From positions 1-48,389 of the IMG/VR virus record IMGVR_UViG_3300032223_002295: DNA of 48,389 nt; one strand, given 5' to 3'. Shown one piece after another: positions 5,844-47,657 of the stretch. Made by a program: the position numbers and the translations under genes. The notes under the pieces are model-generated. The model made no database searches and had not been told where the DNA came from. It saw only the letters and a list, made by a program, of their open reading frames with translations. The stretch's first letter is position 1, and every line of letters starts with the position of its first letter. The stretch is from a virus.

Positions 5844-5856
5844 AATGACCCAAAAA

Positions 5857-5865: not shown

Positions 5866-5893
5866 TTATACATAAATAAGAAAAGGTGGATAA

Positions 5894-6409
5894 ATGTCCT
5901 ATATTAAAATATCAGATCCAAATATCATAGATATTGCAGCATGGCACCAGGTAATCAATGTTGTCAATCAACATAGCGACAGCCTTGCATCAATTACCAA
6001 CAATTTTGGTATTTCCAGCACAGTAGACTGGAATACAAACCTTGGATTCTCACACCAGTTTGACTCTGGCACTCAAGCAATTATTTTTGGTAGAGCGGGT
6101 GGGCAAGGTGTATTTACCCCAGATAATGCTACAACACCAACAGTTTATTATAATCAAGTTACATTTGCAGACACAAACACAGGAGTAAATTCTTTTGCTG
6201 CCACACCAGTTGTTACCGCAACAGTATTTACGGGAAATCCTAGCGGTGGTGCTCAAGTAGGTACAACCTTAGATGATTTAGTATTACAGGTTTATAATGT
6301 AACCCCTACAAGTTTTTATTATAGACTATTTAGAACTGGAACAAATAAAGCAATTGGTTCCACTCTTTATGTTTATGTAAATTGGATGGCAATAGGTCCA
6401 AGACAGTAG
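5894..6409 (+). CDS. Small tail-tip protein with H-type-lectin-like C-terminus
   Basis: This 171-aa protein follows its own extended -10 promoter and an AAGGTGG ribosome site. The second half is beta-rich and ends with 'VNWMAIG'. That pattern resembles the end of H-type lectin domains found in phage receptor-binding proteins, preceded by alternating Phe-x-x-x-Pro-x-Val strands. Sitting between the hub and the giant fibre proteins, it could be a receptor-binding or fibre-tip protein. The lectin resemblance is by eye and moderate; a generic minor tail protein is the alternative. Confidence 0.45.
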   Translation: MSYIKISDPNIIDIAAWHQVINVVNQHSDSLASITNNFGISSTVDWNTNLGFSHQFDSGTQAIIFGRAGGQGVFTPDNATTPTVYYNQVTFADTNTGVNSFAATPVVTATVFTGNPSGGAQVGTTLDDLVLQVYNVTPTSFYYRLFRTGTNKAIGSTLYVYVNWMAIGPRQ

Positions 6410-6418
6410 GGAGGTGCA

Positions 6419-35421: not shown

Positions 35422-35494
35422 TGCCCCATAGCTCAATTGGCAGAGCACCGCACTGTTAATGCGGGTGTTCCTGGTTCGAGTCCAGGTGGGGCAG
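35422..35494 (+). tRNA. tRNA-Asn (GTT)
   Basis: A full cloverleaf fits: 7-bp acceptor TGCCCCA/TGGGGCA, D-stem GCTC/GAGC, anticodon stem CCGCA/TGCGG with loop CTGTTAA, T-stem CCTGG/CCAGG with loop TTCGAGT, discriminator G. The anticodon is GTT. The 3' CCA is not encoded. Confidence 0.92.
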
Positions 35495-35522
35495 CGATTT
35501 ATTAATAAACTAGAGAAAGCAG

Positions 35523-35528
35523 TATAAT
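35523..35528 (+). promoter_or_regulatory. -10 box (TATAAT) of a probable leaderless gene
   Basis: A perfect TATAAT lies 1 nt before one ATG and 7 nt before a second in-frame ATG (35536). No ribosome site is seen, so initiation at the second ATG of a leaderless mRNA fits best. Confidence 0.5.
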
Positions 35529-35535
35529 TATGAAT

Positions 35536-35775
35536 ATGACTACAGAAAAAGCAGTTGACGTAATTGAAGAAAAAGAATACATTTTGGGTCCTACTACAAG
35601 ATGCGATCAATGCTCTGCTGAGGCACTGGTTTTAGTAAAAGGTGTAACTGGAGAACTTATGTTCTGCAAGCATCATTACGAAAAAAATGAATCTGCTTTA
35701 TCAAAGTTTGCATACGAAACTATTGATGAGCGTGAAAAAATACAAGACAATCGTCTAATTGGTAAATCATACTAA
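35536..35775 (+). CDS. DUF7455-like zinc-binding protein
   Basis: The second of two in-frame ATGs is chosen because the -10 box overlaps the space before the first (35530). The 79-aa protein has 'CDQCSAEALVLV' and 'GELMFCKHHYEK', the Cys-x2-Cys ... Cys-x2-His pattern of DUF7455. That family is typical of Actinobacteria and their phages and of unknown function. It is one of the host-range clues in this window. Confidence 0.75.
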   Translation: MTTEKAVDVIEEKEYILGPTTRCDQCSAEALVLVKGVTGELMFCKHHYEKNESALSKFAYETIDEREKIQDNRLIGKSY

Positions 35776-35800
35776 ACAACTACTAACAAAGGATAATAAA

Positions 35801-36157
35801 ATGAACTTCAAGAAATTGATTTCATCAGTACTTCTTGCTGTCGGTTTACTTACTGGAATCTCAGTTCCAGCACATGCTGACACTGCAAAGCAAACAAGCA
35901 TTTCTTCTACTCCTAGCGGATTTGCCGTATCTCCAAGCACTAATTCAGGTGTAGGCGGGTTCACAAGCGTTGTTACTTTGGCACAACTGGCATATAAAGC
36001 TCAAACTGGGCTATCTATTCCTTTGCCAAATTATTCAAACGGATTTGTTCCATTTACATTACCTCAATCAGTAACAGTTGCTCCACCAGCATTGCCTATG
36101 GCGGTTATTCCATTCCGCCCAATGGTTACATTTGGTGCAAATGTAGCAACAAAGTAA
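35801..36157 (+). CDS. Secreted/surface protein with signal peptide (118 aa)
   Basis: The ATG after 'ACTAACAAAGGATAATAAA' is chosen over an upstream in-frame TTG within the previous gene. The N-terminus 'MNFKKLISSVLLAVGLLTG' is a classic Sec signal peptide with a cleavage site after 'AHA' (about residue 26). The mature part is Ser/Thr/Pro-rich with no Cys. No function is recognised. A secreted protein made from an infected cell could act on the envelope or in superinfection exclusion. Confidence 0.65.
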   Translation: MNFKKLISSVLLAVGLLTGISVPAHADTAKQTSISSTPSGFAVSPSTNSGVGGFTSVVTLAQLAYKAQTGLSIPLPNYSNGFVPFTLPQSVTVAPPALPMAVIPFRPMVTFGANVATK

Positions 36158-36164
36158 TTGGATT

Positions 36165-36238
36165 GCGAAAATAGCTTAGTTGGTTAAAGCCCCGAACTCA
36201 TAATTCGGTAATCGTAGGTTCGAGTCCTACTTTTCGCA
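36165..36238 (+). tRNA. tRNA with CAT anticodon (Met, or Ile2)
   Basis: Cloverleaf: acceptor GCGAAAA/TTTTCGC, D-stem GCTT/AAGC, anticodon stem CCGAA/TTCGG with loop CTCATAA, T-stem GTAGG/CCTAC with loop TTCGAGT, discriminator A. The CAT anticodon is read as elongator Met unless C34 is changed to lysidine (Ile). No encoded CCA. Confidence 0.88.
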
Positions 36239-36241
36239 CAA

Positions 36242-36354
36242 GGCTATATGCAGCACACCTTAGAATGGTATAGTTACATATAACAGACCCGCAGCGTAAG
36301 AGTTCGGGTGAGATAGGGCAGCGTCATTTGGTGCTGGAATATCTGCATATAGCC
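36242..36354 (+). ncRNA. Predicted structured RNA of unknown class between tRNA genes
   Basis: A perfect 12-bp closing stem pairs 36242-36253 (GGCTATATGCAG) with 36343-36354 (CTGCATATAGCC). Inside are three further hairpins: GTTA/TAAC (36273-36284), ACCCG/CGGGT (36287-36309) and CAGC/GCTG extended by two G-T pairs (36319-36336). The whole is a four-way-junction fold. It has no T-arm signature and no plausible reading frame. It lies between tRNA-CAT and tRNA-Gln and could be co-processed with them. The class is not recognised. Confidence 0.55.
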
Positions 36355-36359
36355 CCCAA

Positions 36360-36430
36360 TCTCAGATCGTCTAATGGTAGGACATCGCCCTTTGGAGGCG
36401 AGTATCTTGGTTCGAGTCCAGGTCTGAGAG
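36360..36430 (+). tRNA. tRNA-Gln (TTG)
   Basis: Cloverleaf: 7-bp acceptor TCTCAGA/TCTGAGA, D-stem GTCT/GGAC, anticodon stem TCGCC/GGCGA with loop CTTTGGA, T-stem CTTGG/CCAGG with loop TTCGAGT, discriminator G. Anticodon TTG. It starts 5 nt after the structured RNA. Confidence 0.88.
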
Positions 36431-36436
36431 CAAAGA

Positions 36437-36445
36437 TGATATAAT
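36437..36445 (+). promoter_or_regulatory. Extended -10 promoter (TGATATAAT)
   Basis: TGA plus TATAAT directly follows tRNA-Gln and lies 34 nt before the next ATG. No good -35. It gives a leader of about 28 nt with TTAGGAGATT as ribosome site. Confidence 0.6.
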
Positions 36446-36479
36446 TACTCTATAAATAAATTTATATTAGGAGATTTAA

Positions 36480-36764
36480 ATGTCATTATCACATTCACTT
36501 GTAGCATTAAATGCATCAACAGCAACAATTGTTACAATACCCGCAGCCTCTGAGCAAGCATATTCACAATCTTTAAACATTTCTATTCAAAATACAGGAT
36601 CAGTAAACGTTTATCTTGGAGATAGCACTGTAACATCATCATCTTATGGCTATATTTTAGGGCCAGGAGCAGTTTTTTCAGCAGATCTTGCACCAACTGA
36701 TGAGATTTATGCTATAGCAGACAGCGGTACACCAAATGTCGCAACCATAAAGGTTCAACACTAA
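36480..36764 (+). CDS. Beta-rich structural/decoration-like protein (94 aa)
   Basis: This small Ser/Thr/Ala-rich beta protein has no charged helices. The pattern 'SLNISIQNTGSVNVYLGDSTV' and 'GAVFSADLAPTDEIYAIA' resembles small phage head or decoration proteins that place a lipid-like or sugar-binding beta sandwich on the capsid. It is coupled by TAATG to a second structural-looking gene. Assignment by composition. Confidence 0.5.
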   Translation: MSLSHSLVALNASTATIVTIPAASEQAYSQSLNISIQNTGSVNVYLGDSTVTSSSYGYILGPGAVFSADLAPTDEIYAIADSGTPNVATIKVQH

Positions 36765-37264
36765 TGACTAAAATTTCAACTACGCCCTCAGCAGCACAAA
36801 TTCTTTACTTTGGTAATTTTGCAAGAAGCACAAGCATGGCTTCTGGCGGTGCGACATCAGATAATATAATTACTTGGGATACAACAAACAATTCAAAAGG
36901 CATGTCAATATCTGGCACAGATGCAAGCAAAATTGTTTTTGCTAATCCAGGAATTTATAACTTAAATTTTTTAGGTCAGTTTAATTTTACTGGTGGAGCA
37001 TCTAATTACAATATTACTACTTGGTATTCTAAAAATGGTGTACAGGTACCATCTTCGTCTTTTACATTTACAACTACAAGTGCTCAAGGTTCTCAAGTTT
37101 TAGCAAACGTTGAAGCCCCAATTACAGTTGCTGCAGGAGATTATATTCAATTTCACTGGTGGTCAGGTGCAGCGGGGATGTCATTAATTGCAACAGCAGC
37201 AGGAACAAACCCAACAAGACCAGCATCACCAAGTGCTAATCTAACAATTTATAACGTAGGATAA
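36764..37264 (+). CDS. C1q/TNF-like jelly-roll structural protein
   Basis: This 166-aa protein is Gly/Ser/Thr/Asn-rich. The alternating pattern 'PGIYNLNFLGQFNF' ... 'VAAGDYIQFHWWSG' ... 'SANLTIYNVG' matches the strands of C1q/TNF-type jelly-rolls used in phage fibres and decoration proteins. It is probably a trimeric virion surface protein. Starts in TAATG and is followed after 2 nt by the next gene. Confidence 0.55.
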   Translation: MTKISTTPSAAQILYFGNFARSTSMASGGATSDNIITWDTTNNSKGMSISGTDASKIVFANPGIYNLNFLGQFNFTGGASNYNITTWYSKNGVQVPSSSFTFTTTSAQGSQVLANVEAPITVAAGDYIQFHWWSGAAGMSLIATAAGTNPTRPASPSANLTIYNVG

Positions 37265-37266
37265 AA

Positions 37267-37974
37267 ATGCCATACAAAATCGTGCAACATGGAAATAAGT
37301 TTTCAGTAGTAGCTCAAAATACAGGACATGTTGCGGGAACTCATCCAAGCAAAGCTAAGGCTCAAGCACAAATGGCTGCTTTATATGCTAATGAGCCTGC
37401 AGCAAGCGTAAAGAAGTGTATGACTTGTGGATGCGATGATTTAGGTAATGATCACCATTATGTTTCAGATACAGAAAAGTGTGCATATTGTATTGATAAA
37501 GGTCAAGGCCCATGTTGGGATGGTTACGAATATGCTGGAACTAAAGAAAAAGATGGTAAGACAGTTCCTAATTGTATTCCCGTTAAAAAAGAATCCGCAG
37601 GTGCTGGAAGAATTTCTGGTGGTGTAGGATTTAAATTAGAATACAATGTTCCAGACTGCTTGGGTGGTTATGCAATTACAAAAGCGGGAACAGGGCAAGT
37701 AATTGGTTGTTATACAACTAAAGAACATGCAGAAGAAGCTATGAAAGCAATTGCTACAAATGAACCTGTAGTAAAAGGCGATCAAACAAAGCAAGATGAA
37801 CAAGAAGGTATTGGATCATTCACATCATGGGGTGGTTCTTTTGCTCCTGTTATGGGAACACAAATGCAAGACATGAGATACAACTCAACATACAATAGTC
37901 CACCACAGAAAGACGGACAGCCGTCAGCGGGGTACGGAAATCGTTCAGATAAAAATGGACGAAGCAACCAATAA
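37267..37974 (+). CDS. Phage protein with Cys motifs and 'WGGSFAP' tail (235 aa)
   Basis: The N-terminal about 40 residues form a DUF2188-like compact domain ('YKIVQHGNKFSVVAQ' ... 'SKAKAQAQMAALYANE'). The middle has 'CMTCGCDD' and 'CAYC', then 'PCWDGYEYAGTKEKDGK' with 'VPNCIPVK', a motif seen in aquatic-phage structural/morphogenesis proteins. The tail holds 'SWGGSFAPV', also found at the end of the protein encoded at 41734. Function unknown; virion assembly is suggested by neighbours. Confidence 0.5.
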   Translation: MPYKIVQHGNKFSVVAQNTGHVAGTHPSKAKAQAQMAALYANEPAASVKKCMTCGCDDLGNDHHYVSDTEKCAYCIDKGQGPCWDGYEYAGTKEKDGKTVPNCIPVKKESAGAGRISGGVGFKLEYNVPDCLGGYAITKAGTGQVIGCYTTKEHAEEAMKAIATNEPVVKGDQTKQDEQEGIGSFTSWGGSFAPVMGTQMQDMRYNSTYNSPPQKDGQPSAGYGNRSDKNGRSNQ

Positions 37975-38743
37975 TATAATAGTATATTCATTTCATTATA
38001 CAGAAAATACTTTTGAAGAATCCAAATGGTATTGGATGCTTAGGTATTCACTTAAAACATTGCAAGATGTTGGCAATACTATACCTGTTCAAGTATATGT
38101 ATCTAAATTTGATGCATATAACAAATTGTCTAAAGATTTTAAAAATATTAATTTTATTTTATTTAATAATGATTATAAAAATATATTTTGTAAAGAATAT
38201 AAAGAATATGGCAAAATGCAATTTCATAAAGTTGTAAGCGTTTATAATTGTTACGAAATGTTTAATCCAGATAATATATTGTACGTTGATGTTGATACAA
38301 TTTGGTATAAAAATCCACAAATTATATTTGATAAATATAGTAACACAGAATATGTTTGGGCTTGCCCAGATAATGTATTTAATGTTCATAAATTATTAAA
38401 TTTAGATAAATCAATGAATGATGGTTTTTTCTTAATTAATCCAAAAAAATGTTTAAACTTAAAAGTTAATTGGCATAGATATATACAGGGTTACATAAAT
38501 ACAAACCTTGAAGTTTTAAGTAAAATTTTAAAAGGACAAGATTTTATACAAGCTTGCTGGGTAACAATGCAGTATGGCAATTATAAGTATTTTGTAGATC
38601 ATTCAAATGGGGTCAAATATTTTGATGAGTTAGATGTGATTATATCTAATAAAATACATGATGTTGACCAGTCTAAGGTTGTAATTCACCATTATTTAAA
38701 TAGTGAATATGAGGTATATGTGCCCTCAGAATACCGCCCTTGA
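37955..38743 (+). CDS. Glycosyltransferase with DxD motif (GT8-like GT-A)
   Basis: This 262-aa protein starts 20 nt before the upstream stop. It has 'ILYVDVDTIWYKNP' (about 108-121), a DxD metal/nucleotide-sugar site as in GT8-like enzymes, and 'NDGFFLINPK' and 'GQDFIQACW' as acceptor-side motifs. The gene is noticeably more AT-rich (long Asn/Tyr/Lys/Ile runs) than its neighbours, suggesting separate acquisition. It may glycosylate the virion proteins encoded just before it. Confidence 0.7.
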   Translation: MDEATNNIIVYSFHYTENTFEESKWYWMLRYSLKTLQDVGNTIPVQVYVSKFDAYNKLSKDFKNINFILFNNDYKNIFCKEYKEYGKMQFHKVVSVYNCYEMFNPDNILYVDVDTIWYKNPQIIFDKYSNTEYVWACPDNVFNVHKLLNLDKSMNDGFFLINPKKCLNLKVNWHRYIQGYINTNLEVLSKILKGQDFIQACWVTMQYGNYKYFVDHSNGVKYFDELDVIISNKIHDVDQSKVVIHHYLNSEYEVYVPSEYRP

Positions 38744-38769
38744 CAAAAATATAGTCTATTTGCTATAAT
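38740..38769 (+). promoter_or_regulatory. Strong promoter TTGACA-18-(TGC)TATAAT
   Basis: A perfect -35 (38740-38745) and a perfect -10 (38764-38769) with extended TGC, 18-nt spacer. Start near 38776 gives a leader of about 57 nt with a hairpin (CAGGT 38777-38781 / ACCTG 38793-38797), an 'ACTAACTAAC' stretch and AAAAGGAGCA before hsp20. The best promoter in the window together with that at 40879. Confidence 0.8.
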
Positions 38770-38832
38770 ATTAGTACAGGTAGCCTACGGGGACCTGAAT
38801 CTAACTAACTCGCTGAAAAGGAGCAAGTAAAA

Positions 38833-39267
38833 ATGACACATCTAAGATATACAGACCCATTTACACAAATTCAATCTATTTTCAATGACCCGTTTTTTCT
38901 AGGGTTTAATGATCAATTTGTTAGATGGGAATCAAATAAGAAGACAACATCTCAATTCCCACCATACAATGTAAAGAAAATTGATGACGACAATTACACG
39001 ATTGAGCTTGCAGTTGCAGGATATGACCGTGAAGATCTAGAAATCAAGGTAGAAAAAGATACGCTAACAATTAGCAGTGACAAGGACAATGACGATAAGT
39101 CAGATTTCTTACACCGTGGTATTGCTGGACGTAACTTTACCCAATACTTTACTCTTGGGGAATATATGAGTGTTAAGTCTGCTTCACTTGAGAACGGAAT
39201 GCTTATCATTAAGATTGAGCGTGAACTTCCAGAAGAAGCAAAGCCTAAGACAATTCGCATCAAATAA
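38833..39267 (+). CDS. Small heat-shock protein (Hsp20/alpha-crystallin)
   Basis: This 144-aa protein has a complete alpha-crystallin domain (about 42-140): 'PPYNVKKIDDDNYTIELAVAGY', shortened here to its elements P-Y-N-V ... E-L-A-V-A-G, then 'EIKVEKDTLTIS', 'FTLGEYMSVKSASLENGML' and 'IKIERELPEE'. The conserved 'A-x-x-x-N-G-[ML]-L' is present. Hsp20 holds unfolded proteins in a refoldable state. The strong promoter implies high expression. Phage Hsp20 is best known from cyanophages. Confidence 0.9.
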   Translation: MTHLRYTDPFTQIQSIFNDPFFLGFNDQFVRWESNKKTTSQFPPYNVKKIDDDNYTIELAVAGYDREDLEIKVEKDTLTISSDKDNDDKSDFLHRGIAGRNFTQYFTLGEYMSVKSASLENGMLIIKIERELPEEAKPKTIRIK

Positions 39268-39276
39268 GGTACAATA

Positions 39277-39282
39277 TATAAT
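39277..39282 (+). promoter_or_regulatory. Possible -10 box (TATAAT) after hsp20
   Basis: TATAAT (and TACAAT just upstream at 39270) lies 10 nt after the hsp20 stop with no clear -35. It could start the about 85-nt leader of the 48-aa gene, or be coincidental in an AT-rich gap. Confidence 0.3.
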
Positions 39283-39319
39283 ATAGTTACTGCACCACCT
39301 CACCGTGGAGTCGCAGGAC

Positions 39320-39341
39320 AAGGACCTGAGCAAGTCCTTTT
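39320..39341 (+). terminator. Hairpin with short T-run (attenuator or weak terminator)
   Basis: AAGGAC (39320-39325) pairs with GTCCTT (39334-39339) across an 8-nt loop, followed by TT. It lies in the leader between hsp20 and the 48-aa gene. The short stem makes termination weak; it may instead be an mRNA leader structure. Confidence 0.35.
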
Positions 39342-39370
39342 CTAAACTGCTCATCTAACAAAGGATAAAA

Positions 39371-39517
39371 ATGGGTAGCAAGAAAAATCAAATGAAGATT
39401 GCAGCAGCACTAGAAGTTCGTATTGCAAAGATGCCTAAAGGCTCTGGGTTTAAGAAACCAGGATCAATGAATAAAAAGAAAACTGGTTATATCAAGATTG
39501 CACCGTTAAATAAATAA
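39371..39517 (+). CDS. Small basic protein (48 aa)
   Basis: A short gene after 'CTAACAAAGGATAAAA'. The product is very Lys-rich (about one residue in four), with no acidic cluster, and ends in a TAATG junction with the following gene. Nucleic-acid binding is likely from charge alone. It shares its leader type with the secreted-protein and groES genes. Confidence 0.55.
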   Translation: MGSKKNQMKIAAALEVRIAKMPKGSGFKKPGSMNKKKTGYIKIAPLNK

Positions 39518-40206
39518 TGCCAAAGATTAAAGTATCTGCAGAGGAAGAGTTTATTTCTCCTATTCAACCTGCAAAAAAATATGTTCCTAATTGGTATTCA
39601 AAAGCACAATCTTTTATTGGTGGCAAGCCATCGTATGTAGATGGTAAAACAAATGCTGCAATTAAAAGTTGTGTACCGTTTATGGATTCTTATTTAACAG
39701 GATATACAGCAGAACTTTGGTGTGACATACAAGTTGTACAAAAAGTTACAGGACCAGAATTAAGATTTAGTAAGGATTTACTTGCACCAGTTGGCTCAAG
39801 AAGTCCAGATATCAGTCATCCAATGCCAACTCCAAACGGCTATGATGATACACATTTTGTTTGGCATAGCCCTTATTTAATTAAAACTCCTCCAGGATAT
39901 AGTTTATTGATTACACAACCATTAAATCAATATGATCTGCCAACTTTTACACTATCAGCAATTGTTGATGCGGACAAAGAATTGTTCCCAAATGGCAGAA
40001 TACCATTTTTTATTAAAAAAGGATTTGAAGGTGTTATAGAAAAAGGCACACCTATATTTCAAGTTATCCCATTTAAAAGGGAAAGCTGGGAGTCTGTAGA
40101 TTCCCCAGAACTCAGAAAAGAAGCGGATCAAAGGTCATTCAATGTAGCCACAGTCATGTATGGCTGGTATAAAAAGAACGTTTGGACAAAAAAGGAGTAT
40201 AATTAG
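39517..40206 (+). CDS. Paralogous phage protein A (DUF6065-like, 229 aa)
   Basis: The N-terminus has 'PNWYSKA' and a 'CVPFMDSYLTGY' block. The centre has 'KTPPGYSLLITQPLNQYDLPT' reduced here to its elements (K-T-P-P-G-Y-S, P-L-N, D-L-P), and the end has 'GFEGVIEKGTPIFQVIPFKRE'. The protein encoded at 46926 has the same blocks in the same order, so the two are paralogs. Related beta-rich proteins of unknown function are found in aquatic phages. It is not secreted and has no enzyme motif. Confidence 0.55.
   Translation: MPKIKVSAEEEFISPIQPAKKYVPNWYSKAQSFIGGKPSYVDGKTNAAIKSCVPFMDSYLTGYTAELWCDIQVVQKVTGPELRFSKDLLAPVGSRSPDISHPMPTPNGYDDTHFVWHSPYLIKTPPGYSLLITQPLNQYDLPTFTLSAIVDADKELFPNGRIPFFIKKGFEGVIEKGTPIFQVIPFKRESWESVDSPELRKEADQRSFNVATVMYGWYKKNVWTKKEYN
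40191..40203 (+). promoter_or_regulatory. Composite ribosome site / -10 box (AAAGGAGTATAAT)
   Basis: AAAGGAG (40191-40197) is followed directly by TATAAT (40198-40203), which overlaps the upstream stop codon. The ATG at 40211 is 7 nt past the -10, fitting a leaderless start; the SD-like part would be 13 nt away, too far to be optimal. Confidence 0.45.
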
Positions 40207-40210
40207 ATAT

Positions 40211-40456
40211 ATGGTCAATATATCTAAATACATAAAGAATAACCCAGCCAGACTATCTGGCTATGTCTCAGCACTTATCTTGTGGGGACATAAATATTTC
40301 CCCGCAAAGTTAATTGACCTTGTTATACCATCAATTTTATTTATGGTAGGGCTTGGAGAATACAGTCAGCGTGTGGAAGATAAGAAAACAATAAAAGCTA
40401 TTTACTTAGAACCTGACCCAAATAGACCAGATGAAGAAATGATCAAGGAGATATAA
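40211..40456 (+). CDS. Small membrane protein (81 aa)
   Basis: The ATG after the -10 box is chosen over an in-frame TTG inside the previous gene. A hydrophobic segment (about residues 32-50, 'LIDLVIPSILFMVGLG') is preceded by a weaker one (15-25) and followed by a charged C-terminal tail, as in holins or small inner-membrane accessory proteins. It is coupled by TAATG to dps. A second holin/antiholin is possible but unproven. Confidence 0.5.
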   Translation: MVNISKYIKNNPARLSGYVSALILWGHKYFPAKLIDLVIPSILFMVGLGEYSQRVEDKKTIKAIYLEPDPNRPDEEMIKEI

Positions 40457-40899
40457 TGGAAGAAAAAGATTTAATTGACGCTTTAAAAACTTTAAAATCA
40501 ATGGTAGTAAAAATGTATGTTCAATCACACGGATATCATTGGAACATTGAGGGTTCAGGTTTTCCCCAATATCATAAATTTTTATTAAAAATTTACTCAG
40601 ATGTTTATGAATCTATTGATCCAATTGCAGAAAACATACGTAAATTGGGTGCAAAAGCTCCTTTTGGATTAAAATCTTGGCTTGAAGGCAGTGCTTTAGA
40701 AATTAATGATTCAGAAAATCTTGATGCAAGAACTATGTTACAAGAGCTAGTTCAAACAAATACAGTAGTTTTAGCAATGCTTAGAAGAACATATGACATA
40801 TCTAATGAATTAGATGAACAAGGAATCTGTAATTTTATTGCTGGTAGAATTGAGCAACATAAATTTTGGCAATGGCAGTTGACAGCAACACTCAAATAA
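40456..40899 (+). CDS. dps: Dps-family ferritin-like protein
   Basis: This 147-aa four-helix protein has the inter-subunit ferroxidase ligands H28, H40, D55 and E59. Their spacing (12, 15 and 4) is the same as in canonical Dps (H31, H43, D58, E62). 'HGYHWNIEG' is the family signature. Dps oxidises Fe(II) with peroxide, stores iron and can coat DNA. There is no long Lys-rich tail, so DNA binding is less certain than iron detoxification. Coupled to the small membrane protein upstream. Confidence 0.9.
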   Translation: MEEKDLIDALKTLKSMVVKMYVQSHGYHWNIEGSGFPQYHKFLLKIYSDVYESIDPIAENIRKLGAKAPFGLKSWLEGSALEINDSENLDARTMLQELVQTNTVVLAMLRRTYDISNELDEQGICNFIAGRIEQHKFWQWQLTATLK

Positions 40900-40908
40900 T
40901 AGTATAAT
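40879..40908 (+). promoter_or_regulatory. Consensus promoter TTGACA-18-TATAAT for tRNA pair
   Basis: Both hexamers are perfect: -35 at 40879-40884 inside the dps gene, -10 at 40903-40908, spacer 18. It would start near 40915 and transcribe a UUCG hairpin, tRNA-Leu and tRNA-Arg. Confidence 0.8.
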
Positions 40909-40922
40909 ACCAATACAAGTTA

Positions 40923-40948
40923 ACAGAAGGTCCTTCGGGGCCTTTTGT
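40923..40948 (+). terminator. UUCG-tetraloop hairpin before tRNA-Leu
   Basis: ACAGAAGGTCC (40923-40933) pairs with GGGCCTTTTGT (40938-40948) around a TTCG loop, 11 bp with G-T pairs. The T-tract after it is poor (GTGTTT). It may terminate the dps transcript, or act as a 5' processing/leader structure of the tRNA transcript. Confidence 0.45.
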
Positions 40949-40952
40949 GTTT

Positions 40953-41025
40953 GCCCCAGTAATCCAGCGGTAGAGATAGTGGACTTAAAATCCATACAGC
41001 GACAGTTCGAATCTGTCTTGGGGTA
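40953..41025 (+). tRNA. tRNA-Leu (TAA) with short variable loop
   Basis: Acceptor GCCCCAG/TTGGGGT (two G-T pairs), D-stem ATC/GAT, anticodon stem GTGGA/TCCAT with loop CTTAAAA, T-stem GACAG/CTGTC with loop TTCGAAT, discriminator A. The anticodon is TAA (UUA codons). The variable region is only 5 nt (ACAGC), whereas bacterial tRNA-Leu normally has a long variable arm. No encoded CCA. Confidence 0.8.
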
Positions 41026-41026
41026 C

Positions 41027-41099
41027 GGCTCTGTAGCTCAGAGGATAGAGCGTGACTCTTCTAAGGTCAGCGTCGTAGGTTCGATTCCTACCAGGGTCG
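41027..41099 (+). tRNA. tRNA-Arg (TCT)
   Basis: Acceptor GGCTCTG/CAGGGTC, D-stem GCTC/GAGC, anticodon stem TGACT/GGTCA with loop CTTCTAA, T-stem GTAGG/CCTAC with loop TTCGATT, discriminator G. Anticodon TCT reads AGA. It starts 1 nt after tRNA-Leu, so the two are co-transcribed. Confidence 0.9.
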
Positions 41100-41108
41100 C
41101 AAGTAAGG

Positions 41109-41114: not shown

Positions 41115-41133
41115 AGTGGTGAGGAAGTGCAAA

Positions 41134-41463
41134 TTGGAATACGATCCTTCAGATGAAGAGCATAGAGAAATAATGGAGTACCTTATATCAGAGGGAGCTG
41201 CAGAATTCGACGGCGTAGATGAAGATGGTGAACCAATTTATAAATTTGACATGGAAATGTTAGAAGAAGTAATGCCTGATTTATATCAGGTTATGCAGGA
41301 TGACATGGATAATACTTTAGTTGAATTATTCAACAGAGGATTATTAGATGTATCTTATGATGAAAACTTGAATGCAATGATATCTCTTTCAGAAGAAGCA
41401 AAAGCATCTTTAATTAAAGAAGGTTTTAGCTTTGAAGATGAAGAAGAAGATTGGCAAGAATAG
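41134..41463 (+). CDS. Acidic hypothetical protein (109 aa)
   Basis: Start choices in this frame are GTG 41116, GTG 41119 and TTG 41134. The TTG is preferred because GAGGA lies 8 nt before it and the earlier GTGs sit on the predicted promoter and ribosome site. The protein is very acidic (Glu/Asp-rich throughout), helical and ends in a Glu/Asp run. It may mimic nucleic acid or act as a scaffold/chaperone. No family recognised. Confidence 0.5.
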   Translation: MEYDPSDEEHREIMEYLISEGAAEFDGVDEDGEPIYKFDMEMLEEVMPDLYQVMQDDMDNTLVELFNRGLLDVSYDENLNAMISLSEEAKASLIKEGFSFEDEEEDWQE

Positions 41464-41496: not shown

Positions 41497-41733
41497 ATGG
41501 ATAACAACCAACAAGTAGCGGGAGCTGGAAATGAACAACCTTCATCAGCAACTCCTGTAACAGAACAAGCAGGTCCTAATGGTGGCGAGGCTTCATCTCC
41601 AACACGCAATCTTGGAGTGAATAACCCAGGCACCTTAAATGTGGGCACACCTTTCACTGGCAAAGATGTTTCAATGACTACACCTCAATATGCAGGTGGA
41701 AACATTACAACAACAGAGGCAGGTTCAAAGTAA
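41497..41733 (+). CDS. Low-complexity polar protein (78 aa)
   Basis: AGGTGGTGA precedes the ATG. The protein is rich in Gly, Pro, Thr, Asn and Gln with no hydrophobic core, so it is likely disordered. It is directly followed by the ATG of the next low-complexity gene with no spacer, and the pair may be virion or scaffold-type proteins. No function is recognised. Confidence 0.5.
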   Translation: MDNNQQVAGAGNEQPSSATPVTEQAGPNGGEASSPTRNLGVNNPGTLNVGTPFTGKDVSMTTPQYAGGNITTTEAGSK

Positions 41734-42354
41734 ATGGAATCAGCAGAGGCTAAGCTTACAAAATTTATTGATGATGTTAAAGATGCTATTGCTAAAGCAA
41801 TTGGCACCTCATCCTCAGCAAACCAAGAGGCAGATGAAAGATCTGTCGAAAATTATGTCAGAGGCAATTCAGCAACTGACGGAATAGGAGGAAACATAGT
41901 GTCAAATACAACAGAACCAGATCCAAAGGGAGATATTGCCGTAACAAAGGTAATTGATCAAACAACTCGTCCAGAAGACAATGTTTCAGTTTCTGATGCT
42001 CCAAATGAGCCAGGAATTGTTCCAAACAATGAAACATTCCCAGGAGAGGGATCAGCAGTTGCTCCAACAGCAGCAGAAATGGCAGAGCCAGTTAAGAAAG
42101 CTGATGCAGGAAAGTGTGCATCATGCGGTCAAACACTTCCAGTTGAAAAGGCTGATGAAGCAAAAGAAGAAGACGAAATTACAAAGTCTGCATCATGTGC
42201 AGATTGCGGTAAGTCTATGGACCTATGCGATTGCATGGGCAAAGCAGTAGATGAAAAAGAAACTGCAGCAGAATCTGCTAAAGAAACAGCAGCAGATGAA
42301 AAGGCAGAAATGAAGAAGTCCCTATGGGGCGGAGCATTTGCACCAATTAAGTAA
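41734..42354 (+). CDS. Disordered acidic protein with Cys clusters and 'WGGAFAP' end (206 aa)
   Basis: A short helical N-terminal segment is followed by a long Ala/Glu/Thr/Pro-rich disordered region, then 'CASCGQTLP' and 'CADCGKSMDLCDC' (paired CxxC clusters) in Lys/Glu repeats. The last residues 'SLWGGAFAPIK' match the tail of the 235-aa protein at 37267. A shared C-terminal peptide suggests a common binding partner, for example a prohead or chaperone. The gene ends at a strong terminator. Confidence 0.5.
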   Translation: MESAEAKLTKFIDDVKDAIAKAIGTSSSANQEADERSVENYVRGNSATDGIGGNIVSNTTEPDPKGDIAVTKVIDQTTRPEDNVSVSDAPNEPGIVPNNETFPGEGSAVAPTAAEMAEPVKKADAGKCASCGQTLPVEKADEAKEEDEITKSASCADCGKSMDLCDCMGKAVDEKETAAESAKETAADEKAEMKKSLWGGAFAPIK

Positions 42355-42375
42355 TAAATATATACGTATATATTG

Positions 42376-42410
42376 ACACAGAAGGTCGGGAAACCGATCT
42401 TCTGTGTTTT
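42376..42410 (+). terminator. Rho-independent terminator
   Basis: A 14-bp stem (42376-42389 with 42394-42407, one G-T pair) closes on a GAAA tetraloop and is followed by TTT within a TTTT run. It ends the block of genes before the YspA-like gene. It is the clearest terminator here. Confidence 0.85.
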
Positions 42411-42424
42411 ACGGAAAGGAAACC

Positions 42425-42793
42425 ATGAAGGTAATAGTATTTGGAAGTAAAAACTATACAGATTATAACGAATTAATGCGTCAAATAACTGTGTTGCTTG
42501 ATGACCGCAAGCACTTCTATCCTGATGACAAGCAACATATATTTGTACATGGCGGGATGCAGGGTGCAGAAAACATGGTTACTGAATATATTGGCAAGGT
42601 AGAAAAATATATGCGTCAAAAAGGTTATTCAATCAAAGAAGAATTAAGTAGACTTAAAACATCATTAAATGATTTATCATTGATTGAACAAGGAGCAGAC
42701 TTTGCTTTGATCTTTGGAGTTTCAGAAAGAAACTATACATGCGAAAAGCTTTTAAAAGAATATGCAATTCCCTATAGATTTATTAAAGAATAG
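42425..42793 (+). CDS. YspA/YpsA-like SLOG-family protein (DUF2493)
   Basis: The ATG after ACGGAAAGGAAACC is preferred over an in-frame GTG inside the terminator. The 122-aa protein has 'VIVFGSKNYTDY' (1-15) and 'FVHGGMQGAEN' (about 45-55), the nucleotide-binding loops of the SLOG Rossmann-like fold. The end has 'FALIFGVS'. SLOG proteins bind nucleotide-derived ligands, and phage ones are of unknown role, possibly linked to ADP-ribose or defence signalling. Confidence 0.7.
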   Translation: MKVIVFGSKNYTDYNELMRQITVLLDDRKHFYPDDKQHIFVHGGMQGAENMVTEYIGKVEKYMRQKGYSIKEELSRLKTSLNDLSLIEQGADFALIFGVSERNYTCEKLLKEYAIPYRFIKE

Positions 42794-42857: not shown

Positions 42858-43166
42858 ATGACAAAGATACAGCCACTCGGCAGTCTAGTCTTAGTAAAAG
42901 AAAATAAGCAAGAAGATAGAACAACAAAGTCAGGTTTAGTAATTGCTGCAACTGTGGCAGATACAAACCTATGTCGTGGTGTAGTTATTGCAGTTGGTCC
43001 AGGAGACAATGATAACGTTGGTAACCACTATGACATCCCGCTTAAAATGGGGGATACAGTAATTTATTCTCATAATCATGCAACAGATGTTGAAGATGAT
43101 GATAACGAAAAATATCAATTTATTAATTGGAGAAACCTACTAGGCGTTGTAAAGGAAAATAACTAA
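42858..43166 (+). CDS. groES: Co-chaperonin GroES (Cpn10)
   Basis: This 102-aa protein is close to the usual GroES length. It has 'QPLGSLVLVKENKQEDRT', the mobile-loop region 'KSGLVIAATVADTN', 'GVVIAVGPG' and 'LKMGDTVIYSHNHATDVE' near the expected dome and base positions. It caps the host GroEL ring, probably adapting it to fold phage proteins, as T4 gp31 does. A stand-alone promoter and standard ribosome site imply early or strong expression. No groEL is present. Confidence 0.9.
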   Translation: MTKIQPLGSLVLVKENKQEDRTTKSGLVIAATVADTNLCRGVVIAVGPGDNDNVGNHYDIPLKMGDTVIYSHNHATDVEDDDNEKYQFINWRNLLGVVKENN

Positions 43167-43396
43167 TGCCATCATTTGAATTAAACTACGAAGAAGCTCA
43201 TGCTTTTGTAGAAAAGAATCTTAAAAACAACTTTTTTTGGGATGGTTACACTTTAGTAAAGTGGAATCAAAATCCCGATGGCTACATGGCAACAAACGGA
43301 TTGTTTAGAAAAGGTAAGTGGGGATATGCTACTTATTATAAAATGACTAACCGTGGCACTTGGAAGGTTAGCGACAAGTATGCCAGGTTTATTTAG
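43166..43396 (+). CDS. Hypothetical protein (76 aa)
   Basis: It begins in a TAATG junction with groES. The product is aromatic-rich (Tyr, Phe, Trp) and basic. 'FFWDGYTLVKW' and 'MATNGLFRKGKWGYATYYK' look like beta strands. It overlaps the WhiB start by 17 nt. Not recognised. Confidence 0.55.
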   Translation: MPSFELNYEEAHAFVEKNLKNNFFWDGYTLVKWNQNPDGYMATNGLFRKGKWGYATYYKMTNRGTWKVSDKYARFI

Positions 43397-43706
43397 TCAT
43401 TTAGGTATTGATGAAGTTGATATCAAATGGTATCATCTTTCGGCATGTCGCAACATGTCAATTAATTGGTTTTATGACGATTATGAATCAGATAAAGAAC
43501 TTGCAAAACAAGTTGATCAAGTATGTTTACATTGCCCAGTAATTAAGCAATGTCACGAACAAGGTGTATTAGGCAAAGAAAAAGGTGTCTGGGGCGGTGT
43601 GTATATGGATCTTGGCAGAACTGACAAGCAAAACAATACTCACAAAGAACCAGAGATTTGGAAACAGTTAAAGAAAATTCATGGCAAAAATATCGTACAC
43701 GGTTGA
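43380..43706 (+). CDS. WhiB-family Fe-S transcriptional regulator
   Basis: The ATG at 43380 is chosen over an upstream GTG in frame with no better ribosome site. The 108-aa protein has the four WhiB cysteines C23, C49, C52 and C58 and the 'GVWGG' turn (69-73). These ligate a 4Fe-4S cluster that senses redox or NO and binds the host sigma factor. WhiB proteins are restricted to Actinobacteria and their phages, making this the best host marker. A phage WhiB can alter host transcription, as shown for mycobacteriophage TM4. Confidence 0.92.
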   Translation: MPGLFSHLGIDEVDIKWYHLSACRNMSINWFYDDYESDKELAKQVDQVCLHCPVIKQCHEQGVLGKEKGVWGGVYMDLGRTDKQNNTHKEPEIWKQLKKIHGKNIVHG

Positions 43707-43959
43707 GATGGCTAAAAAAGTCAGGGCAATTAAATGTCCTGTCAAAAACCTTATCTTAGATGTTAGAGCAAGACCAAACTATCTTGCTTTAACTGTGTAT
43801 GAAAGTAATGTCATGGAGTTTAATGAAAGCCAAAGAATGCAGATCATGGAATATTTATTATTAGTCCGTGAACTTATTCAAGCTTATGGTACACCATGCG
43901 AGATAGAAGGGATGAAATATACTGATGAGCAGGCAAGAGCAAGAAGAGGACAACGCTGA
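43681..43959 (+). CDS. Hypothetical protein (92 aa)
   Basis: This starts inside the WhiB gene (26-nt overlap) and overlaps the next gene by 35 nt. It is basic with a compact alpha/beta core ('VKNLILDVRARPNYLALTVYE') and an Arg/Lys-rich end. Found only as an uncharacterised phage protein type by eye. Confidence 0.5.
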   Translation: MAKISYTVEMAKKVRAIKCPVKNLILDVRARPNYLALTVYESNVMEFNESQRMQIMEYLLLVRELIQAYGTPCEIEGMKYTDEQARARRGQR

Positions 43960-44149
43960 GAATTCAATAACTTACGTATACATACCCGACGAGGATGTGT
44001 ATGGAATTATTAAAACTCACGGTGCTTGGGCTTCTCTGATTGAATATTATGAGGGCGGGGTAAAATACCTTATAGAGGTCCCAAACGAGGAGTTTATTGT
44101 GGTAGATGAAATAGGAATAGGTTATATTGACGAAACGGAAGGTTTATAA
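43925..44149 (+). CDS. Conserved hypothetical protein (74 aa)
   Basis: It starts 35 nt before the upstream stop and ends in TAATG. The sequence 'YVYIPDEDVYGIIKTHGAWAS' with 'KYLIEVPNEEFIVVDEI' suggests a small beta-barrel (SH3-like). Small proteins with this pattern recur in actinophages without known function. Confidence 0.55.
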   Translation: MSRQEQEEDNAENSITYVYIPDEDVYGIIKTHGAWASLIEYYEGGVKYLIEVPNEEFIVVDEIGIGYIDETEGL

Positions 44150-44379
44150 TGCTGTGTTTTAGCTGTGGAAAGACCAAAAATGAGCTTCATCCAAAGAAAT
44201 CCGATATAATGGAAGGTGTGATGCTTTATTTGTGCCAGTTGTGCATAGATAATCGTTACGAGCCTAGATGGGTAATTATCTTGGGCGGAAGACAGAATGG
44301 TGCTGAATCAGTTAGAGATTATATTCTTAAGCGTCGTTATGTTGGAAATCCAATTTCAGCGGAGGAACTAATTGCTTAA
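44149..44379 (+). CDS. Small zinc-finger protein (76 aa)
   Basis: A 'CFSCGKTKNELHPKKSD' N-terminus with a second 'CQLC' pair gives a four-Cys zinc site. The rest is basic with 'EPRWVIILGGRQNG' and a helical end. This type is frequent in actinophages. It overlaps the thioredoxin gene by 8 nt. Confidence 0.6.
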   Translation: MLCFSCGKTKNELHPKKSDIMEGVMLYLCQLCIDNRYEPRWVIILGGRQNGAESVRDYILKRRYVGNPISAEELIA

Positions 44380-44668
44380 GATTACAGATGATGCAAAAGA
44401 ATTTCAATCTGAAAATGAATGTGTAGTTTATTTTACAGCTGAATGGTGCAACCCATGTAGGCAATTAAAGCCACATTATGGCAAGGTTTCTGTAATGGAT
44501 CCTGAAACTAACTATTATCTTGTAGATGTTGACAAGGTTGGCTCAAAGGTGGTAGAATACTATAATATCAAGAGCATCCCCCAGATTTTTACAATGAAAA
44601 ATGGGGAGATTGTTGACCGTATTGAATCTCGAACAGCAGAATCCATTTTGGAGGAATTAGGAAAGTGA
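44372..44668 (+). CDS. Thioredoxin-like protein (active site WCNPC)
   Basis: The TTG is supported by a GGAGGA ribosome site 5 nt upstream, and no other start retains the first strand. The 98-aa protein has the active site 'WCNPC' (25-29) and the cis-Pro in 'SIPQIF', with length and order of a thioredoxin. The CNPC dipeptide is unusual relative to CGPC and should shift redox potential. It may reduce host or phage disulfides or serve a phage ribonucleotide reductase not visible here. ATGA-like GTGA overlap couples it to the next gene. Confidence 0.85.
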   Translation: MLKITDDAKEFQSENECVVYFTAEWCNPCRQLKPHYGKVSVMDPETNYYLVDVDKVGSKVVEYYNIKSIPQIFTMKNGEIVDRIESRTAESILEELGK

Positions 44669-45210
44669 CAACAATTGTTGCGGTAGTCAAGAACGGCAAT
44701 GTTACTATGGGTGCAGATGCTCAAGTAACAGATGGTTCACGTCCAAATCGCCATGCTCAAATGGAAAAGATTACCAAAAATAATGGTTGGTTAATTGCAG
44801 GTAGTGGTGATTCAACCCCTTGCGATATTTTACAGTTAATGTTTGTTCCACCAGTTCCTACAATTAAGGAACGAGAAAATCTTTATAAGTTTATGATAAC
44901 AAAGTTTGTTCCTGCCATGCGTGAGTGCTTAGAAGATAACGGTTGGAAAGAAGATAAAGAAGATAAAGACTCAGGATTTAGTATGCTATTTGCATTTGAT
45001 GGCGAAGTCTTTGATATTGGAAATGATTTTAGCGTATTGTTAAATAGCGATGGCATATACGGCGTAGGTAATGGATCTCAATTCGCTATTGGTGCGTTGT
45101 ACGCTGGGGCTTCAATAGAAAAAGCTCTTGAAATTGCTGCTAACAATGATATTTATACATCTGGACCTTTTCAGATTTTAAAACAACAAAAACAAACAAA
45201 GAAAAACTAA
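44665..45210 (+). CDS. HslV-like Ntn-hydrolase peptidase
   Basis: It starts at GTG in a GTGA overlap. After Met removal the N-terminus is Thr-Thr ('TTIVAVVKNG'), as in HslV. The 'MGADAQVTDG' block carries the Asp (D18 with Met, D17 in mature numbering), and K35 is close to the catalytic Lys33. 'WLIAGSGD' and 'YGVGNGSQFAIGAL' match later HslV strands. HslV is the peptidase of the HslUV protease; no HslU ATPase gene is seen. Function as a self-compartmentalised or host-ATPase-driven protease is inferred. Confidence 0.8.
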   Translation: MTTIVAVVKNGNVTMGADAQVTDGSRPNRHAQMEKITKNNGWLIAGSGDSTPCDILQLMFVPPVPTIKERENLYKFMITKFVPAMRECLEDNGWKEDKEDKDSGFSMLFAFDGEVFDIGNDFSVLLNSDGIYGVGNGSQFAIGALYAGASIEKALEIAANNDIYTSGPFQILKQQKQTKKN

Positions 45211-45217
45211 AGTACAC

Positions 45218-45247
45218 TTGACTTATAGCGTATGTTTAGGATACAAT
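45218..45247 (+). promoter_or_regulatory. Promoter TTGACT-18-TACAAT
   Basis: -35 TTGACT (45218-45223) and -10 TACAAT (45242-45247) with an 18-nt spacer. The about 55-nt leader holds a hairpin (TCGTGCC/GGTACGA, 45255-45272), a second small one, and 'ACTAACTAGATAGGA' before the ATG. Confidence 0.7.
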
Positions 45248-45309: not shown

Positions 45310-46356
45310 ATGAAAACAAATAAGAAGATTGCCATTGCTATCGCTGCAGCCCTAGCATTCACAGGCATCTCGGCTTCAGCACAGGCAGCACCACTTGCTG
45401 TTACTGTAGCAGGAGTAACTAACGCAACAACATCTGCAGCACCACGTACAGTTGCAGTACCAGTATCAAATGTAATTGATTCATCAAATACAGTAGCACT
45501 TGCTGCTACAGCAGATACAGGCACAGTTGTAACATTTGTTGCATCAGGCGTAAAGCTTGTTTCAGCACTTAATACATCACTTGCACCAGTCAATGCAGCA
45601 TCAGGCGTTTCATCGCTTTCTGTAACATCTCAGGGTGTTGCAGCAACTGTATATGCTTATACAACAAGCACAACTGTTGGATCAGTAACCATTACAAATG
45701 GTTCATATTCAACAATTGTTTACATTCAAGGAACAGCAGGAGTTGCAGCAAACGTTGCAGTTTCAGTTCCAGCATCAGCAGCAGTCAATACTGCTCCTAC
45801 AATTTCAGTTTCAGCAACTGACGTATTTGGTAATCCAGTAGCGTCTGAGGCTATCTCTGTAACACTCGTTGGTGCAACCTTCTCTGATGCATCAATCACA
45901 AAGACTCTTACAACTTCTGCAGTTACATCTGCAGCAGGTGTAACACCAGTAACAGTTCTTGGTTCAGCAACAGGTACACTTTCTGCAGTAGCAGCAGGTA
46001 CAGTTACAGTTCTTGCAACTGATTCATCAATTGCAGCAACAGCAACAGGTCTTCCTGTGGCAGTAAAGTCAGCAATTGCAACATTTGCAGTATCAGATCT
46101 AAGCGGTCAGATTACAGCACTCAATGCACAAATTGCATCTCTCAATGCACAAATTGCATCTCTCAATGCACAACTTGTAGCAGCAAAGGCTGCTCAAGCA
46201 ACTGCAGAAGCAGCAACAGCAACTGCAAAGGCTGCAACAACAGCAGCACAAGCAGCAGCAGATCTTGCATCAGCAGCATATAAGGCAGAGTACAACGCTC
46301 TTGCTACAAAGTGGAACAAGGCTCATCCAAAGGCTAAGGTTGCACTAAAGAAGTAA
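45310..46356 (+). CDS. Secreted coiled-coil surface protein (348 aa), host-like
   Basis: The N-terminus 'KTNKKIAIAIAAALAFTG' is a Sec signal peptide ending at 'AQA-AP' (about residue 27). The mature part is an Ala/Thr/Val/Ser-rich beta region (about 28-255). It is followed by a C-terminal coiled coil with three 'LNAQIAS'-type heptads and Ala-rich helices. Codon and base composition (more GC, GCA/ACA-rich) differs from the neighbouring genes. It resembles actinobacterial S-layer or surface proteins, so recent acquisition from a host is inferred. Role could be surface modification of the infected cell. Confidence 0.65.
   Translation: MKTNKKIAIAIAAALAFTGISASAQAAPLAVTVAGVTNATTSAAPRTVAVPVSNVIDSSNTVALAATADTGTVVTFVASGVKLVSALNTSLAPVNAASGVSSLSVTSQGVAATVYAYTTSTTVGSVTITNGSYSTIVYIQGTAGVAANVAVSVPASAAVNTAPTISVSATDVFGNPVASEAISVTLVGATFSDASITKTLTTSAVTSAAGVTPVTVLGSATGTLSAVAAGTVTVLATDSSIAATATGLPVAVKSAIATFAVSDLSGQITALNAQIASLNAQIASLNAQLVAAKAAQATAEAATATAKAATTAAQAAADLASAAYKAEYNALATKWNKAHPKAKVALKK
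46120..46179 (+). repeat. 21-nt tandem repeat in the coiled-coil coding region
   Basis: Two exact 21-nt units (46120-46140 and 46141-46161) and a third diverging copy (from 46162) each encode one heptad 'LNAQIAS/L'. The near-identity at DNA level shows recent duplication and offers a site for length variation. Confidence 0.85.
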
Positions 46357-46706: not shown

Positions 46707-46948
46707 TGTCAGATGGAGCAGTACCGCTACATTTTAGCGAATTAGAAAAGCTTGTAACAGAGGTTGCAGGGGAACTACTAGAACACTGGGCTATTAAGGG
46801 TCGCTATACAGAAGAAGAGCAAGATAAGGCAGCCCAAGATGCTGTTGATGACACTGTATACGTAATCAATTCATATATGATTAAGTTTAATGAATTAATC
46901 GCATTGGAACAGGCCAAGAAGAGTAATGTTCAAATTCAAACAAAATAA
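46706..46948 (+). CDS. Hypothetical helical protein (80 aa)
   Basis: It starts in TAATG and overlaps the next gene by 23 nt. The sequence is helical and acidic ('EEEQDKAAQDAVDDTVYVINSY'-type, broken here), with no motif recognised. Confidence 0.5.
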   Translation: MSDGAVPLHFSELEKLVTEVAGELLEHWAIKGRYTEEEQDKAAQDAVDDTVYVINSYMIKFNELIALEQAKKSNVQIQTK

Positions 46949-47657
46949 GATCAAAGAAGGCGAAATTCACTTTCAGCCTATTGATTCAAACCGATTTTTT
47001 TCAGCTTCACAACCAACTCCAGCGGTAAAACATTTACCACAATGGTATAAAAACATTGAAAGAAATGTAACTCATACACATAAAGATATAGAAGATAAGT
47101 CAAAGTTTAAAATTATCCCTATGGGTACAGTTAAAAAATGTATTCCTGTGTTGGATGCATTTTCCGCTGGTTACATTTATTCTGCACCAATTGAATTATT
47201 TTTTAGCGAAGAAGCACAAGATTTTGCACACAATTCAAATATTGAATTTATTCAAGGTCATGACGGAAGACAATTAGAAGGTTGGGCAGCAGACCCAAGT
47301 TATATTCAAATGGCTTTTAAATGGAGAAATCTTAATATAATTAAAACAGCTCCAGGGTGGTCTTGTTTGTTTACTCATCCATTAAATAGACTTGATTTAC
47401 CTTTTTATACATTGTCAGGTGTTGTGGATACAGATGTACATCCAATGCCAGTTAATTTTCCTTTTGTTATGAAAAGAGGATTTACTGGAAAGATTTTTGT
47501 TGGTACACCTTTAGTACAAATTATTCCATTTAAAAGACAAGATTGGAAATCTGTTACTGATGAGTATGATCCAACAGATCCCGCAGTTCATATAACAACA
47601 AGATTAACTGAAGATATTTATAAGAAAACTTTGTGGAATAAAAAGCGTTACAATTAA
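46926..47657 (+). CDS. Paralogous phage protein B (DUF6065-like, 243 aa)
   Basis: Paralog of the 229-aa protein at 39517. Shared landmarks in the same order are 'P-x-W-Y', 'K-x-C-x-P-x-x-D-[AS]-[FY]', 'T-[AP]-P-G-[WY]-S-[CL]-L-[FI]-T-[HQ]-P-L-N', 'D-L-P-[TF]' and 'G-x-G-T-P-[LI]-[VF]-Q-[VI]-I-P-F-K-R'. Both end in 'KK-x-[EY]-YN'. The N-terminus is longer and Lys-rich. Function unknown; two diverged copies in one genome suggest a heteromer or specialised roles. Confidence 0.55.
   Translation: MFKFKQNKIKEGEIHFQPIDSNRFFSASQPTPAVKHLPQWYKNIERNVTHTHKDIEDKSKFKIIPMGTVKKCIPVLDAFSAGYIYSAPIELFFSEEAQDFAHNSNIEFIQGHDGRQLEGWAADPSYIQMAFKWRNLNIIKTAPGWSCLFTHPLNRLDLPFYTLSGVVDTDVHPMPVNFPFVMKRGFTGKIFVGTPLVQIIPFKRQDWKSVTDEYDPTDPAVHITTRLTEDIYKKTLWNKKRYN

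Follow-up and report, generated by a model that had tools for sequence, protein, structure and literature searches.

A phage-encoded HslV/BPH-like N-terminal-threonine peptidase beside GroES, thioredoxin and WhiB genes in viruses of actinobacteria

The window analysed here, a virus record of 48,389 bases that represents a fragment of a virus, carries on its plus strand a gene (44665-45210, GTG start, 181 aa) for an HslV/BPH-like N-terminal-threonine peptidase. Judged from its structure model, the product is a divergent group I proteasome homologue, with a fold as near to that of BPH as to that of HslV. The enzyme looks active and motorless, it has long been kept in a context of chaperone, redox and WhiB genes, and it is replaceable. 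We therefore propose, with moderate confidence, that it is a compact, uncapped group I proteasome homologue which digests unfolded or unstructured proteins during infection. A preliminary description of this DNA had suggested that the enzyme pairs with a host ATPase, cleaves unfolded proteins alone or acts in capsid maturation; among these options, digestion of unfolded proteins alone would fit best.

A Shine-Dalgarno-like GGAGG (44650-44654) precedes the GTG start, which overlaps the 3' end of the thioredoxin gene (44372-44668) by 4 nt. Upstream of this GTG, the open frame (194 codons) contains no in-frame ATG, GTG or TTG before the stop, and thus no propeptide is seen. The Met-Thr start would make the protein a substrate for methionine aminopeptidase; judging from this start and from the lack of a start codon for a propeptide, the host enzyme would remove Met and expose Thr1. 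Gene order and overlap are observed, and by coupling the peptidase may be translated as the distal partner of thioredoxin in the WhiB/GroES/thioredoxin cassette. Indeed, the open reading frame, the GGAGG, the family profile, the fold model and purifying selection all agree that the gene is real, as had been assumed. A promoter scan yielded 25 promoter-like sites versus 24.0 expected and was therefore not used.

The active site was examined in 98 distinct sequences, drawn from 136 viral-contig rows (one pattern scan for relatives kept the best 80 of 199). Thr2 (codon 44668-44670; the nucleophile, Thr1 after removal of the initiator Met), Asp18 (mature Asp17, 44716-44718), Lys35 (44767-44769) and the oxyanion Gly48 are invariant in 98/98, the conservation of Thr2 and Lys35 being partly built in for some loci because some scan patterns include one or the other; Asp18 and Gly48 are in none of the peptidase patterns. 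Thr, Asp and Lys are also present in 10/10 divergent homologues reached via a neighbour gene. The earlier claim that the N-terminal Thr and mature Asp17 are kept, so that the enzyme looks active, is therefore supported by the sequences. The Lys announced near position 33 is present as well, with mature number 34, one residue after the HslV/proteasome Lys33 with which it aligns. The auxiliary serine position of the GSG motif, which we equate with proteasome Ser129, varies (S 45, N 27, T 24, A 2; n=98), and the Asn found there in the window counts against the uncapped peptidase that we propose, as does a score under the PF00227 cut-off. Finally, the NG86 method gave a median dN/dS of 0.121 (range 0.011-0.268; 335 usable of 406 pairs) with a median dS of 1.29, which is near saturation. 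These values point to strong purifying selection on the peptidase.

With regard to its family, the peptidase matches phrog_1040, 'peptidase HslV family', with an E value of 1.5e-32. It scores 31.0 bits with TIGR03692 (HslV; cut-off 157.75), 32.7 bits with PRK05456 (cut-off 137) and 17.9 bits with PF00227 (Pfam Proteasome), under the 22.4 cut-off. In a profile search of solved structures the best match was BPH 5ovu (E 1.6e-10), followed by 5ovs and several HslV, and the best BFVD match is an uncultured phage 'HslV' (E 2.3e-18). An AlphaFold2 model built with 57 window and viral-contig rows (pLDDT 91.9, pTM 0.88) aligned with BPH 5ovt at Z 19.0 (2.2 A, 161 residues, 24% identity), with HslV 4hnz at Z 18.4 and with E. 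coli HslV 1e94 at Z 17.7; HslV structures range over 17-18.4, and since structural matches within 1 Z unit were counted as tied, BPH and HslV are tied. The structure model and fold comparison that the preliminary description had recommended thus predict an Ntn/HslV-type fold, with a long helix H2 (residues 69-91), and the peptidase unites the features of group I proteasome-like Ntn enzymes, i.e. the fold, Thr1, Asp17, Lys33 and the oxyanion Gly47. The name 'HslV-type peptidase' given earlier is appropriate for the active-looking Ntn/HslV-type fold, but the protein is not HslV itself, which we rejected on equivalog scores far under their cut-offs and on the longer pore loop. A 20S core was rejected too: each of the matching records searched has a single peptidase copy, PF00227 matches the window once, and there is no alpha/beta pair.

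In a tree of 35 rows the window, the LanE43-F5 family and a third clade group together (92/94). A separate clade (100/100) contains Sinorhizobium, Streptomyces and Paraburkholderia plasmid genes and Psychrobacter, Vibrio and Moorella phage genes. The window clade is placed at sister level to this putatively AAH-like clade, with weak support (80/72) and several long branches, and HslV, the PPH-like rows and BPH fall outside, BPH forming its own branch (100/100) of length 1.54. A bacterial homologue on a Sinorhizobium fredii plasmid (L040:8001-8546) lies among nitrogen-fixation genes, with nifQ on one side and iron-sulphur/nifS-nifW genes on the other.

According to the model and the alignment, codons 92-104 (44938-44976) would form a pore-type loop, charged and acidic, that connects helix H2 to the next strand. 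Counted between the same anchors, the pore-loop region has 34-39 residues in 98/98 viral sequences versus 29 in 4/4 HslV; the short loop expected of HslV was thus not found, the loop of the peptidase being 5-10 residues longer. Two BPH rows have 35 residues between these anchors, with a gap at the start. A long acidic pore loop was tied to the unfoldase-free BPH in the consulted sections of Fuchs 2021 (PMC8665760), and the peptidase combines such a loop with a fold closest to that of BPH.

PF07724 (AAA_2, the HslU/ClpX core) matched none of 41 distinct phage records, namely 25 from a first search, 15 further ones and the window, most of them fragments or of unstated completeness; as positive controls, 14/14 control genomes were matched. 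The 26th record of the first search is a MAG and has five matches. No AAA_2 match was obtained in the nearest relatives of the window, which are up to 102-112 kb long; the window-type relatives are without exception fragments or records whose completeness is not stated. PF00004 (AAA) was detected neither in ten window-type records nor in the window; weak matches to it occur in 14/26 records, one of which is the MAG, and those in F5-type, C-type and other phages (12/12) are short AAA proteins, of 261-272 aa in the F5-type genomes. The earlier observation that HslU is missing from the window consequently holds, with no AAA_2 or AAA domain found there, and the wider search that had been advised retrieved hslU from none of the phage relatives searched.

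The peptidase could nevertheless be one half of a mixed machine: by docking on an AAA+ unfoldase of the host, such as ClpX or Mpa/ARC, it would redirect the degradation carried out by the host. Enzymes with the HslV fold are typically fed by an AAA+ ring, and a host motor would account for the fact that the phage encodes no unfoldase. However, the pore loop is long and BPH-like, unlike the short loop of HslV, and the sections of Fuchs 2021 considered here give no co-occurring AAA+ for such homologues (PMC8665760). In addition, HslV is not marked for Actinobacteria in Table 1 of that paper, among the parts consulted, so that HslU would probably not be supplied by the host, and the host is probably devoid of HslU. 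For Nanopelagicales with a proteasome, nothing was found in the open-access literature. We consider docking on a host unfoldase unlikely.

If the peptidase instead acts uncapped, as we propose, its fold suggests that the subunits would assemble into a ring or a double-ring barrel. This barrel would have no dedicated AAA+ motor; peptides, as well as proteins that are unfolded or loosely folded, would enter it by a pore carrying the long acidic loop, as proposed for BPH. Phage HslU being absent from the records searched, the barrel may work uncapped and independently of ATP. Its likely use would be to break down unfolded proteins of the host or the phage during infection, beside the GroES, Hsp20 and thioredoxin of the phage.

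The cassette genes are all on the plus strand. Directly upstream of the peptidase, the thioredoxin gene (44372-44668; WCNPC motif, PF00085 54.3 bits) follows a gene for a phrog_11425 protein with four Cys in CxxC pairs (44149-44379), two other conserved cassette genes (43925-44149 and 43681-43959) and the gene of a WhiB-like regulator, an actinophage marker, whose start is uncertain (43353-43706; PF02467 39.7 bits). Further upstream we found a conserved gene (43166-43396), the GroES co-chaperonin gene (42858-43166; PF00166 75.1 bits), a gene for a SLOG-like protein, recognised by a weak match under the Pfam cut-off (42404-42793), and three conserved genes (41116-41463, 41497-41733 and 41734-42354). 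A gene for an Hsp20 small heat-shock protein (38833-39267; phrog_432, E 1.1e-39) belongs to the same strand run. Other genes surround the cassette. Five tRNA genes (Asn, Met, Gln, Leu, Arg) are spread over 35422-41100, two of them just before the cassette, and repeated DUF6065/phrog_7084 proteins are encoded at 39517-40206 and 46926-47657, as they are in L131, L133, L134 and L135; in L135 a pair of them encloses a tryptophan-halogenase-like gene (PF04820 342 bits) on the upstream side of the peptidase. Just 3' of the peptidase, a gene preceded by a promoter-like TTGACT-18-TACAAT (45218-45247) encodes a secreted, low-complexity surface-like protein with a coiled-coil C-terminus (45310-46356).

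One and the same series of genes stands ahead of the peptidase in 28 viral loci and in L151. Thioredoxin, always upstream, GroES, within 2.5 kb, and WhiB accompany it in 29/29 of these loci, a set that includes the near-identical contigs L013/L014, L019/L020 and L024/L025. Hsp20 is present in 20/29, some loci ending too early to show it. The 4-base overlap between thioredoxin and peptidase is seen in 18/29 loci, seven have an extra gene or a gap between the two, and in eight GroES lies downstream of the peptidase, still at most 1.3 kb away. L151 (CAINGU010000031.1), the sole relative among the genome_contigs, is a contig of 109,918 bp with the same phage cassette; we rejected a chromosomal origin and regard it as phage DNA that was binned into a MAG with the title 'cyanobacterium'. 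Searches of the open-access literature listed no report of the peptidase in acI or other actinophages, nor of the WhiB/GroES/thioredoxin cassette.

Loci found via the peptidase cannot show how frequent it is, and for this reason neighbour genes were used as bait. The first bait, 43681-43959, retrieved 37 loci, with the peptidase in 31 of the 32 that extend at least 2.2 kb downstream, five being too short. The second bait, 44149-44379, retrieved 33 loci, with the peptidase in 31/32 that have room; L321 ends too early. Both searches share contigs, and their sole exception is one and the same contig (L201 = L316), where a 549-aa DUF885 protein (L201:5993-7642; PF05960 380 bits) stands exactly in the slot of the peptidase, behind thioredoxin. 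This protein has the metallopeptidase-like motif HESVPGHH (HExxPGHH) and may be a metallopeptidase. Ten loci retrieved with the second bait diverge most (L323-L332), and there the slot contains an AAH-like MTCIV type (seven loci) or by a third, MTVI type (three loci), at about 5300-6700 and 0.5-1.6 kb after WhiB. Tentatively, actinophages may thus keep a long-lived 'protease slot' at the side of WhiB, occupied by three or more diverged kinds of proteasome homologue and once by DUF885, as a self-contained module without an ATP motor that acts with GroES and thioredoxin; with it the virus would dispose of host proteins, or reuse them, under a control linked to WhiB.

The same observations could be read in terms of a protease that serves counter-defence or host takeover and is dedicated to one or a few particular targets in the host. 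Such a role would agree with a single conserved copy per genome, strong purifying selection and the linkage to WhiB, and also with the DUF885 protein that substitutes for the peptidase in one phage. Still, no defence-linked neighbour was recognised, and with a length of 178-186 aa in 98/98 sequences the peptidase has no insertion that would suggest a narrow specificity; we regard this role as quite unlikely.

The window virus is a virus of freshwater actinobacteria; WhiB is used as an actinophage marker in the consulted parts of two papers (PMC6802176, PMC10202952). The closest relatives in the phage collection are OX376641 (LanE43-AprF5) and OX376640 (LanE43-AprE7), with 36 and 35% identity, the two phages for which 'Ca. 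Planktophila' served as the culture host. The sections considered of PMC10202952 present LanE43-F5 as a complete genome of 38.9 kb; the main text of that paper nowhere mentions protease, peptidase, proteasome or HslV, and it refers genes for the degradation of host proteins to a supplementary table. L165 and OX376640, both Planktophila phage records, bear the organism name 'Caudovirales sp. ct2KA10' and are unannotated, so that searches by name miss them. Homologues were also found in Actinomycetia phage DSL-LC01, where the gene adjoins WhiB, in Arthrobacter phage Pitbull and in the Microbacterium phages Pumpernickel and Lifes. The gene of the cultured Planktophila phages follows the portal gene, away from chaperones, and the link with chaperones is therefore not general.

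This position after the portal gene led us to pursue capsid maturation, which had been mentioned among the possible roles. In the LanE43-F5 family the gene is directly 3' of the portal gene in 74/74 loci that have more than 700 nt upstream, and an S78 protease was not found in 9/9 genomes of this family; in Lifes and DSL-LC01 the gene stands some kb ahead of terminase and portal. All this would suit a head-maturation or virion protease. However, the peptidase itself is not an S78 protein, the type of caudovirus prohead proteases, and in the window-type relative G001 its gene is about 45 kb from the portal, S78 protease and capsid genes, which lie together. S78 is present in G001, G002, G003 and G005, i.e. 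4/4 window-type contigs above 73 kb, G004 excepted, as well as in 10/12 further large cassette phages. Among the F5 capsid-gene loci (best 80 of 595 relatives, 15 of the 80 showing the portal end with room), 3/15 are without the peptidase, their gene order being unchanged and the slot empty of any other protease. Likewise, the whole records of the Streptomyces phages Kumquat and FlowerPower contain no homologue; their portal proteins show 43 and 42% identity, and the Kumquat capsid protein shows 56 and 64% identity to the F5 type in two blocks. Since the large relatives possess their own S78 protease and cultured-phage-type heads are formed by phages devoid of the gene, a role in capsid maturation is unlikely for the window lineage, and in the F5 lineage this process can dispense with the gene. 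We rejected this candidate, and a head-maturation or virion protease seems very improbable to us.

In the sections of Fuchs 2021 (PMC8665760) considered here, there is no genomic context hinting at a function of orphan proteasome homologues and no actinophage AAH. The conserved GroES/thioredoxin/WhiB context and the actinophage relatives address both gaps. Furthermore, two cultured 'Ca. Planktophila' phages carry relatives, so that what a viral proteasome homologue does can be tested with an actual phage and its host.

Orphan HslV-like phage genes without HslU are already in print (PMC8665760, PMC7823757 and PMC8953757, in the parts consulted), and the peptidase can be compared with several known systems. 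With HslV (ClpQ) it shares the fold (Z 17-18.4), Thr1, Asp17, the Lys and an N-terminus where nothing beyond Met is to be removed; it differs from HslV by its score (31 versus 157.75 bits), by a pore loop 5-10 residues longer and by the lack of HslU. PPH, the type to which we compare phrog_1040, is likewise phage-encoded and orphan. However, PPH has about 140 residues and no H2, according to the consulted part of PMC8665760, whereas the peptidase has 181 residues and a long H2, and PPH was rejected on these grounds. BPH (5ovs, 5ovt, 5ovu) is the best match by fold and by profile, and has in common with the peptidase a long acidic pore loop and no known unfoldase; on the other hand, it forms its own 100/100 branch in the tree, and Table 1 of Fuchs 2021 (PMC8665760), as far as this source was consulted, has no BPH mark for phages or for Actinobacteria. 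AAH resembles the peptidase by a group I fold with H1 and H2, by being orphan and present in phages, and by having no known AAA+ partner; the plasmid relatives in Rhizobium/Sinorhizobium and Streptomyces fit the stated host range of AAH, but the window clade is apart from the Sinorhizobium-Streptomyces-Paraburkholderia-Moorella phage clade (100/100), to which the AAH label would apply. Finally, the Salmonella jumbo phage pSal-SNUABM-04 has HslV genes with HslU stated to be absent (PMC7823757), and the Citromicrobium phage RXM has a BPH-type gene, g89 'BPH', which in the view of its authors may be powered by a phage AAA ATPase (PMC8953757). Both phages have other hosts, and in the sections considered of these two papers no conserved chaperone/WhiB cassette is described. 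What is new here is the conserved actinophage cassette with GroES, WhiB and thioredoxin beside the peptidase.
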